A stretch of DNA of 64,000 bases from positions 930,001 to 994,000 of the forward strand of contig CP095846.1 of NCBI GenBank assembly GCA_023100825.1. The letters are read 5' to 3'. The translations under genes and the position numbers were made by a program. This stretch comes from Nocardioidaceae bacterium SCSIO 66511 (GTDB lineage Bacteria; Actinomycetota; Actinomycetes; Propionibacteriales; Nocardioidaceae). The notes under the pieces were generated by a model. The model saw nothing but the letters and a program-made list of their open reading frames with translations, searched no databases and was not told the origin of the DNA. Of this stretch, positions 25,637-27,014 are shown piece after piece. Numbering within the stretch: position 1 is the first letter of the stretch; the number at the start of each line of letters is the position of its first letter.

Positions 25637-25654
25637 TCTAGCCGAACAACGAAG

Positions 25655-25687
25655 GGCCCCGATCCGCACTGCGGATCGGGGCCTTTT
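25655..25687 (+). terminator. Intrinsic terminator after tuf
   Basis: A 13-bp perfect G/C-rich stem (25655-25667 with 25671-25683) and a 3-nt ACT loop are followed by TTTT (25684-25687). It closes the str operon. Confidence 0.93.
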
Positions 25688-25698
25688 CGCATCTCCAC

Positions 25699-25768
25699 CT
25701 CCCGCCGAGGTACGGAGTCGTTCCCATGGCGTACGCCTCATGGGAACGAATCCGTACCTCGGCGGGAG
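25699..25768. repeat. Long palindrome, copy 1, upstream of DUF559 gene
   Basis: 30-bp arms (25699-25728 and 25739-25768) pair with one mismatch around a 10-nt spacer that is itself mostly palindromic (GCGTACGC). The arm core is CCGAGGTACGGA then TTCCCATG. The same core recurs at 26785-26890, on the other side of the next gene. Confidence 0.92.
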
Positions 25769-25829
25769 ATTCCGAAAATTGGGCTGTGGATAACGCAAAG
25801 TACAAGCCCGATCTGCGCAACGCTTGGGC

Positions 25830-26783
25830 ATGCCTGGAGCCCGTGCAATCCCGACCGAACTCAAGAGTGGAATCGTCACCGAATGGGACGCCAAAGCCTA
25901 TGGACTGAGTACGAAGGTCTTGCGCCGGGCCGGATTCAGGCAGCTACATCGCAGCATCTACATCTGGCCCGAGGTCGAAGTCACGCCACAGCTGCAATAC
26001 GACGCAGCCCAACTCACGATGGCGTGGACGGCGTTGGCATCGCATCAAACTGCGGCACAGCTGCACGGTCTGCCCGTACCCGATCCGAGTGTGCCGCACT
26101 TCTGGTTTCCCGAACGAGACAAGGGCATTGATACCTCCGGCCTACGGGCGCACTGGTTCAAGACCGGCGAGGTGCCGAGGTACCGGATGATCGACGGTCG
26201 CCGCGTCACCTCCATCGGCAAGACCTTCATCGACCTGGCGACGGAACTCTGCTTGTTCGATCTCGTTGCGTTCGCCGATGCGGCGATCAAACGGCCCGAG
26301 GTGACGATTGACGAGTTGCGTGAACTCTCCCTCGAACGTGGCCGTCGCCACATCCGTAAAGCGCGCCAGGCCGTAGACCTGGTTCGGCCTAGAGTCGACT
26401 CTCCGCCGGAAACACACCTTCGACTACTCCTTCACTTCGCAGGGCTTCCTGAGCCGAAGACCGGCACTGCGGGACTCGACGCGGAGGGGGAGTGGATAGC
26501 GACTCCGGACCTGAGCTTTCCGGAGGTCCGGCTGGCGATCGAGTACGACGGTGAGCACCATCTGCGGCAGAGGAAGCAGTGGACTCGCGACGTCGACCGA
26601 AACGCCGAGTACGTCGAGAACGGATGGACGGTCGTCGTCGTGATCGCCGACCATCTGTACCGACGGCCGCAGCTGATCCTCGATCGGATTCACGGCCATC
26701 TGCGTCGGCTGGGACATCCGAGTACGCCGCGCGTACTCGCCGGCGAGTGGGAGCGGTACCTGAACGAGGTGCGCCTGCAATAA
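25830..26783 (+). CDS. AbiEi-like HTH plus DUF559/Vsr-like endonuclease-domain protein
   Basis: Starts at ATG 25830 (or TTG 25824) and gives 317 residues. The N-terminal half (about 10-90: TKVLRRAGFRQLHRSIYIWP, then TAWTALASHQTAAQLHGLPVP in part) resembles the AbiEi-type antitoxin winged-helix region. The C-terminal part (about 200-285) is DUF559-like, a Vsr/PD-(D/E)XK fold, with SPPETHLRLLL, PDLSFPEVRLAIEYDGEHH and WTVVVVIADHL carrying candidate catalytic E, D, E and H residues. Function is unknown; a DNA-nicking or repair role is inferred from fold. The gene stands alone and is bracketed by copies of the same palindrome. Confidence 0.72.
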   Translation: MPGARAIPTELKSGIVTEWDAKAYGLSTKVLRRAGFRQLHRSIYIWPEVEVTPQLQYDAAQLTMAWTALASHQTAAQLHGLPVPDPSVPHFWFPERDKGIDTSGLRAHWFKTGEVPRYRMIDGRRVTSIGKTFIDLATELCLFDLVAFADAAIKRPEVTIDELRELSLERGRRHIRKARQAVDLVRPRVDSPPETHLRLLLHFAGLPEPKTGTAGLDAEGEWIATPDLSFPEVRLAIEYDGEHHLRQRKQWTRDVDRNAEYVENGWTVVVVIADHLYRRPQLILDRIHGHLRRLGHPSTPRVLAGEWERYLNEVRLQ

Positions 26784-26784
26784 C

Positions 26785-26890
26785 CCCACCAGTCCCGCCG
26801 AGGTACGGATTCGTTCCCATGAGACGCGCGCCATGGGAACGAATCCGTACCTCGGCGGGCTGGTGGGAGGGAATCCGTACTTCGGCGGGA
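26785..26890. repeat. Long palindrome, copy 2, plus extra half-site, downstream of DUF559 gene
   Basis: Arms 26785-26821 and 26832-26867 pair over about 36 bp with a single inserted base, and a further partial arm sits at 26870-26890 (AATCCGTAC, then TTCGGCGGGA), 30 bp from its counterpart in the right arm. The core is the same as at 25699-25768, so the nuclease gene lies between two copies. Confidence 0.92.
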
Positions 26891-26925
26891 ACTTTTGGGT
26901 ACGTAGGTGGGTCTGACGAATAGCG

Positions 26926-26967
26926 AAAGCCCACCGCTCCGGAGGGAAAGAGGGAGCGGTGGGCCTT
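26926..26967 (-). terminator. Intrinsic terminator for the META-domain gene
   Basis: A 12-bp perfect stem (26929-26940 with 26953-26964) has a 12-nt loop. Read on the minus strand it is followed by TTTCG, giving a terminator about 50 nt after the gene's stop. Confidence 0.75.
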
Positions 26968-27014
26968 CACGGGCCCCTACACCGGAGTGGGTGGCGCAGG
27001 GGTGGTTGGGCGGA

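Follow-up and report, generated by a model that had tools for sequence, protein, structure and literature searches.

An AbiEi-like/EDxHD nuclease gene between its own dispersed palindromes, and a REP-like layout among its actinobacterial homologs

Why should a solitary gene with the features of a nuclease sit between copies of one long palindrome? The question is raised by a locus in a 64,000-nucleotide stretch of the Nocardioidaceae bacterium SCSIO 66511 genome (contig CP095846.1, positions 930,001 to 994,000; the whole stretch is called the window here). The gene follows tuf, and downstream of it lie a META-domain gene and then a sigma-factor gene, in the opposite direction (Table 1). The first-pass annotation, made from the sequence alone, had described a gene placed between two palindromes with an extra half-site, and this layout is supported by the coordinates, by the complementarity of the arms and by folding. 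As single-stranded DNA, the two palindromes reach −39 and −38.6 kcal/mol, whereas shuffled versions reach about −12 kcal/mol (sd about 2), with 0 of 200 shuffles as good for each; the half-site alone gave no fold in the same analysis. The upstream palindrome is separated from the ATG by 61 bp, and the 83-bp inverted repeat that contains the downstream palindrome begins one base past the TAA. With one of them inverted, the two palindromes are equal at 62 of 66 positions, compared to 58 of 66 in direct orientation. Their exact core, CCGAGGTACG, is present four times in the window, always inside one or the other palindrome. If one mismatch is tolerated, its occurrences exceed chance elsewhere as well (32 against 7.75), so the core alone is not diagnostic. 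Matches of Rfam miRNA families over the palindromes were far under their gathering scores and were dismissed, as they merely reflect hairpins.

Table 1. Features of the nuclease gene locus (positions counted from the first letter of the window).
Feature	Position	Strand	Remarks
Terminator-like inverted repeat	25652-25686		
Upstream cognate palindrome	25699..25768	.	70 bp; arms 30 nt, 97% complementary; loop 10 nt
AbiEi-like/DUF559 nuclease gene	25830..26783	+	317 aa; ATG start; TTG at 25824 possible
AbiEi-antitoxin-like half, residues 3-186	25836..26387	+	structure and profile matches
EDxHD/Vsr-type nuclease half, residues 191-296	26400..26717	+	structure match and conserved residues
Outer inverted repeat	26785-26867		83 bp, one unpaired base; contains the downstream palindrome
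Downstream cognate palindrome	26793..26859	.	67 bp; arms 28 nt, 100% complementary; loop 10 nt
Extra half-site, one arm	26864..26890	-	89% like palindrome arm
Terminator-like inverted repeat	26925-26968		

The protein had been read as an AbiEi-like DNA-binding half joined to a nuclease-like half, and profiles, structure matches and conserved residues all bear this out. A model predicted from an alignment of 22 sequences had a mean pLDDT of 90 and a pTM of 0.87. Its N-terminal half matched the AbiEi antitoxin 6y8q_A (Z 9.6, 178 residues aligned, Foldseek E 1.8e-6) with an rmsd of 7.5, which indicates that the domains are probably rotated, and matched Rv2827c more weakly (Z 7.3). PADLOC profiles for AbiEi covered residues 13-179 with an E-value of 1.2e-11. 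The C-terminal half superimposed on I-Bth0305I (3r3p_A) over 97 of 97 residues with a Z of 9.4 and an rmsd of 2.7, a match for which Foldseek alone gave only E 0.13, and on Vsr (1cw0_A) with a Z of 8.0 and 27% identity. A profile search of solved structures returned the ‘endonuclease-like protein’ 3hrl (1.5e-4, profile positions 214-286). In Pfam, MTES_1575 (E 2.3e-6) and DUF559 (E 0.0016) were matched, both of them only below the cut-offs.

Across an alignment of 81 homologs, residues S191, E194, D227, E238, G241 and R257 are invariant, and D240, H244 and D254 are kept in 77, 78 and 79 of the 81 proteins, respectively. We infer that E194, D227, H244 and D254 make up the EDxHD catalytic set, although they were not aligned to a solved structure residue by residue. 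Conservation of the IEYDGEHH motif in alignment A2 is biased, since 25 homologs were found by six peptide patterns that include it; 13 of the 81 proteins compared above come from that set.

Parts of this architecture recall known systems. As in the AbiE type IV toxin-antitoxin system, the N-terminal half has an AbiEi fold, and AbiEi binds inverted repeats according to the accessible part of the source (PMC7319586). Unlike in AbiE, one polypeptide joins the antitoxin-like half to a nuclease, and no AbiEii (DUF1814) toxin gene lies beside the window gene, its neighbors encoding EF-Tu, a META-domain protein and then a sigma factor. The nuclease fold and the DUF559 match are shared with Vsr and with Vsr-like DUF559 nucleases such as Caulobacter VsrA, as far as the available portion of PMC12907096 describes it. 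The additional AbiEi-like half and the flanking palindromes set the window gene apart from these nucleases. Vsr nicks T:G mismatches within a methylated motif; no methyltransferase domain was found in the three neighboring proteins scanned.

The bracketing is not peculiar to the window gene. We compared the flanks of 105 homologs, namely eight genes of the window genome (G000), 72 others in the family and the 25 pattern-found homologs in other actinobacteria; the family set is the best 73 of 95 matches, window gene included. Using full reading frames, the threshold was set at 19.0, the 99th percentile of 3000 mismatched flank pairs, which 1% of such pairs pass. Above it, 83 of the 105 homologs, window gene counted, share a repeat across the gene: all seven other paralogs of the window genome, 61 of 73 family genes and 15 of 25 genes from other actinobacteria. 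Among the controls, distal flanks passed in 1 of 101 cases, unrelated spans in 3 of 485, and spans beside genes of the other-actinobacteria set in 0 of 241. Median distances are 82 bp from the upstream repeat to the start and 8 bp from the stop to the downstream repeat; the pair is direct in 36 cases and inverted in 47. Five further records, obtained from seven database matches, were all bracketed (the gene ends of two, L234 and L236, were guessed, and matches H4 and H5 were not included).

No repeat pair was detectable for 22 of the 105 homologs, that is, 12 family genes, five from Bifidobacterium, and L036, L042, L045, L048 and L054. Start codons were set by rule, and a few negatives, for instance L113, may reflect wrong gene ends. 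Two outcomes had been named beforehand as refutations. A palindrome scattered without any link to DUF559 genes is contradicted by the 83 bracketed homologs; a gene occurring without any palindrome holds in part, since those 22, all five Bifidobacterium genes among them, fell below the threshold. Those five genes (L043, L046, L049, L050 and L051) are 67–75% identical to one another, with one flank 85–96% identical, in the pairs listed other than L043/L046.

Each of the eight such genes found in the window genome has a different flanking repeat, and no pair of paralog repeats scored above 11 when compared with each other. The ortholog in the congener G001, which is 69% identical and also follows tuf, likewise lies between two palindromes, whose inner arms have changed. 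The first-pass annotation had advised a search for the 28-bp core and for DUF559 genes; the palindrome is indeed scattered in the window genome, but the core as the sole query would miss the general pattern, because each gene has another repeat sequence. Hairpin scans indicate that many flanking repeats are single long palindromes. A strict palindromicity control was passed by only 32 of the 83 positives, a low figure attributable to a control drawn from loci that themselves hold palindromes. By eye, L030, L037, L044, L015 and L053 seem to carry arrays of 20–30 bp half-sites, tandem or inverted, on both sides without a single palindrome.

The same comparison bears on the idea that an unrelated transposase spreads the palindromes and that nuclease genes merely settle between them. 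Among mobilizing enzymes only one, the HUH-Y1 transposase domain PF01797, has been excluded, and this in three genomes (none in G000, G001 or G006; the control was positive in 5 of 14 genomes), which leaves some room for such an enzyme. Chance settling, however, would not be expected to bracket 83 of 105 genes when control spans give 0–0.6%, nor does it account for repeats that differ among paralogs of one genome, and we regard this explanation as highly improbable.

The palindromes are not confined to the flanks of genes. We tested six palindrome families, and all proved dispersed, with at least 4 to 41 copies. The window family occupies 20 places in the window genome, a lower bound because 35 of 1861 candidates were scored, and has 12 exact-ended copies there; the congener G001 holds 41 exact-ended copies, and a reversed-pattern control gave none. 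A paralog in the window genome, at 3335340, has a palindrome that was found in 15 places there and in 5 places of G001; the two copies beside the gene are identical, and the remaining copies are at most 91% alike. In G006, the palindrome bordering gene L020 was found in 15 places, 12 of which were read, and the palindrome of the gene shared by G108 and G111 in 12 and 11 places, respectively. The palindrome beside EL451_RS09310 of Tsukamurella tyrosinosolvens NCTC13231 was detected at 20 places, spread over 8 records, every one from Tsukamurella, among the 72,556 of a plasmid collection, and that of Arthrobacter sp. ERGS1:01 in 7 places in one record; as these places count both strands, they correspond to at least 10 and 4 copies. 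The window palindrome had no match in the plasmid collection. A covariance search of 149 family genomes under strict filters recovered it in four (3 of 26 genera; the hit in G074 is weak), so the sequence itself is lineage-specific, and searching for it alone misses the pattern. Two window-family copies lie 1.8 kb apart at L009 (G000:4006000-4012500), beside what appear by eye to be two similar sigma-factor-like genes, possibly a local duplication.

Within copies of the window family, the two arms change together. In G001 the arm reads CGAGGTACG-NNN-TCC-N-GCC-AAT, where the N positions vary among copies and are matched within a copy. These four positions match between arms in 29, 34, 33 and 22 of the 41 copies, compared to 16.1, 15.9, 16.3 and 15.4 expected, and identity to a copy's own arm is 0.831 versus 0.704 (sd 0.016) after shuffling (z 7.8, n=41). 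Nine copies from the window genome show two-sided compensated changes in 9 of 26 pairs; the RNAalifold covariation term for the same nine copies is slightly unfavorable (+0.34), and several pairs are broken in some copies. Because the arms covary within copies, the hairpin matters. A dimer binding the duplex would need no matched arms at free positions, from which we infer that selection acts on the hairpin or that copies originate by way of it.

What kind of system combines a gene with dispersed copies of its own flanking palindrome? The closest counterpart is the REPtron, in which, as described in the accessible parts of PMC6006769 and PMC3733652, each palindrome family has one gene that it flanks, the palindromes are dispersed and intergenic, several families occur per genome, and gene and palindrome coevolve; the same sources describe TIRtrons, which have long terminal inverted repeats, some of them dispersed. 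The homologs studied here resemble REPtrons in that 83 of the 105 enzyme genes lie between copies of their own repeat and in that palindromes of all six families are dispersed in intergenic DNA, with only 3 of 31 copies in the window genome inside a crudely called frame. The likeness to REP palindromes and their processing enzyme proposed in the first-pass annotation thus holds in layout (20 places in G000, 41 copies in G001, 83 of 105 genes bracketed). It does not extend to the enzyme: whereas REPtrons use a RAYT (TnpA-REP), the protein here is AbiEi-like/EDxHD, matches DUF559/MTES_1575 and contains no PF01797. The window palindromes also differ from REPs in their size of 67–70 bp with arms of 28–30 nt, and the GTAG or CGTC end tag is absent from the window family, the only one read for it, whose ends read CCCGCCGAGG and CCTCGGCGGG. 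Since its enzyme is not the defining one and the window family lacks the sequence tag, we have not filed the system as a REPtron. We consider it fairly probable that the gene and its palindromes belong to a large actinobacterial family of REP-like pairs in which the cognate enzyme is a nuclease and not an HUH transposase; that the protein binds and cuts the palindrome and that copies spread is inference.

Solo copies have a marked preference in position. We examined 55 of them, 18 and 13 from two families of the window genome, 8 from G001, 9 from G108 and 7 from G111. For 44 of them a stop codon is no more than 30 bp away (11, 10, 8, 8 and 7 by set), and 17 lie between two convergent stops, versus 4.6% and 0.3% of random positions; the control comprised 4000 positions and was not limited to intergenic DNA. 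A crude gene caller placed the 31 copies of the window genome between tandem (14), convergent (7) or divergent (5) genes or inside a called frame (3), with 2 undecided. The gene-end preference is strong, not absolute.

Such positions could also be explained by everyday use as operators and terminators. In that case, the AbiEi-like half would bind the upstream palindrome and repress its own gene, the palindromes would serve as two-way terminators, solo copies would be useful gene-end hairpins, and the nuclease would have another job. Both AbiEi and Rv2827c control their own expression via inverted repeats, judging from the part of PMC7319586 that is available, and both the median distances of the flanking repeats from start and stop and the crowding of solo copies at gene ends agree with such use, as does the occupation of two G108 slots by other repeats in G111. 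It offers no reason for a separate repeat sequence, itself dispersed, at each gene. Moreover, no T-run follows either window palindrome, the stem behind tuf was the sole hit of a terminator scan in which 1.0 would be expected by chance, and tuf already has a terminator-like repeat ahead of the upstream palindrome. We therefore judge this explanation unlikely, while noting that it accounts well for the positions and may be true alongside the REP-like pairing that we prefer.

The first-pass annotation had asked whether empty sites exist. Between the window genome and G001 (~79% identical), 16 of 31 solo copies were tried, 15 of the 16 target stretches were retrieved and 7 sites were resolved; for the other 9 the flank was missing or other sequence lay in between. 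The palindrome is missing from G001 at four resolved sites (L005, L162, L168 and L170), and it is present in both at three (L006, L153 and L159). At L006, one of the shared sites, the two inner arms show a joint change of the kind that conversion between copies would produce. In the closer pair G108 and G111 (~91% identical), 9 of 11 fetched copies, out of 12 places in total, are common to both: 7 of 9 solo copies plus the flanking pair. The two remaining G108 slots are filled in G111 by other repeats, one a clear palindrome, as if such convergent slots were refilled by different repeat families. At these slots (L205 and L198 in G108), the G111 loci L209 and L207 hold a different family of palindromes or half-sites, of the CTTTCGACAAGCTCAAGG type, and G114 has other sequence. 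No target-site duplication of the sort that marks a MITE or insertion sequence was read, the compared species being ~79–91% identical at the sites and thus too diverged to show one. Solo copies differ among species yet change slowly.

The palindromes vary along with the protein, and most sharply with its N-terminal domain. Similarity of proteins and similarity of repeats are correlated with a Mantel rho of 0.26, compared to at most 0.13 in permutations and 0.11 for outer flanks; two of the 83 positives (L030 and L040) were left out of this test and of the 81-protein comparisons for length. The correlation is weak overall and owes something to shared descent, with the signal coming mostly from close relatives with similar flanks. 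Where nuclease halves are 70–80% identical, pairs with similar repeats have an N-domain identity of 0.65 and a middle-domain identity of 0.77 (n=8), while pairs with different repeats have 0.53 and 0.68 (n=12); where repeats differ, then, the middle domain differs as well, not just the N domain. The clearest case is the locus L027/L141, compared between G012 and G033: flank identity is 97%, that of the gene only about 75%, and the repeats are dissimilar. By domain, identity is 36% in the N domain, 64% in the middle domain and 90% in the nuclease. At three loci, among the matches listed, the gene has opposite orientation in related species, with flanks 71–93% and the gene ~64–76% identical (L108/L131; L110, L142 or L128/L145; L120, L103 or L107/L138). 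These cases suggest, as an inference from sequence, replacement or inversion through the palindromes, with the N half as specificity module.

Exchange of this kind could also be the work of a homing-type cassette, in which palindrome, gene and palindrome would be replaceable at fixed loci: the nuclease would cut resident palindromes, the gene would be copied in, and alleles would be exchanged and orientation flipped. The L027/L141 comparison and the three inverted loci speak for such a cassette, and the nuclease half has the fold of the EDxHD catalytic domain of I-Bth0305I, a homing endonuclease of intron origin, and conserved E194, D227, H244 and D254. In contrast to a homing endonuclease gene, however, the window gene is intergenic with complete palindromes on both sides and no interrupted site, assuming that the palindrome is the target, and solo copies are far more numerous than genes. 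On balance, a homing cassette seems to us quite unlikely.

Under the REP-like reading, the AbiEi-type half would recognize one palindrome family, an inference drawn from AbiEi biology as far as the source presents it (PMC7319586) and without binding data. The EDxHD/Vsr-type half, judging from its fold, might nick or cut its own palindrome, probably as a hairpin or cruciform. Repair of the break could then convert copies into one another and occasionally seed a new copy at a gene 3′ end, and the palindromes would behave as slowly spreading selfish repeats for which a resident enzyme does the work. To our knowledge, a nuclease of such a fold does not join DNA the way an HUH transposase does. Layout, dispersal, arm covariation, active-site conservation and linked change are matters of observation here; the first-pass annotation had taken the unit for a small selfish or domesticated module, but that it moves as a whole was not demonstrated, and no binding, cutting or movement was seen. 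Whether these genes form a widespread second class of palindrome-maintaining systems, independent of RAYTs and not related to them, with recognition of the own family by the N half, processing of hairpins, conversion together with slow spread to gene 3′ ends, and specificity swapped by N half and palindromes jointly, is a question on which we are evenly divided.

REP palindromes with a dedicated enzyme have been linked to a single kind of enzyme, the HUH tyrosine transposase, in those parts of PMC6006769 and PMC3733652 that are accessible. We found nothing in the open literature searched that links DUF559 genes to palindromes, with subscription papers and preprints mostly outside the scope of the search. 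What appears to be new is the pairing of dispersed palindromes with an AbiEi-like/EDxHD nuclease, the logic of the layout being already known from REPtrons. If the pairing is functional, REP-like repeats arose at least twice with unrelated enzymes, and several such families can coexist in one actinobacterial genome. The natural protein-palindrome pairs, in which one domain seemingly sets specificity, make recognition directly testable, and they offer a possible role for proteins annotated just as ‘DUF559 domain-containing’. Finally, at one site where the window genome has a solo palindrome, G001 carries another gene together with a palindrome, GAGTTCGGTGCGAA..., that by eye is like that of the paralog L013 (L181, G001:3661850-3663340).
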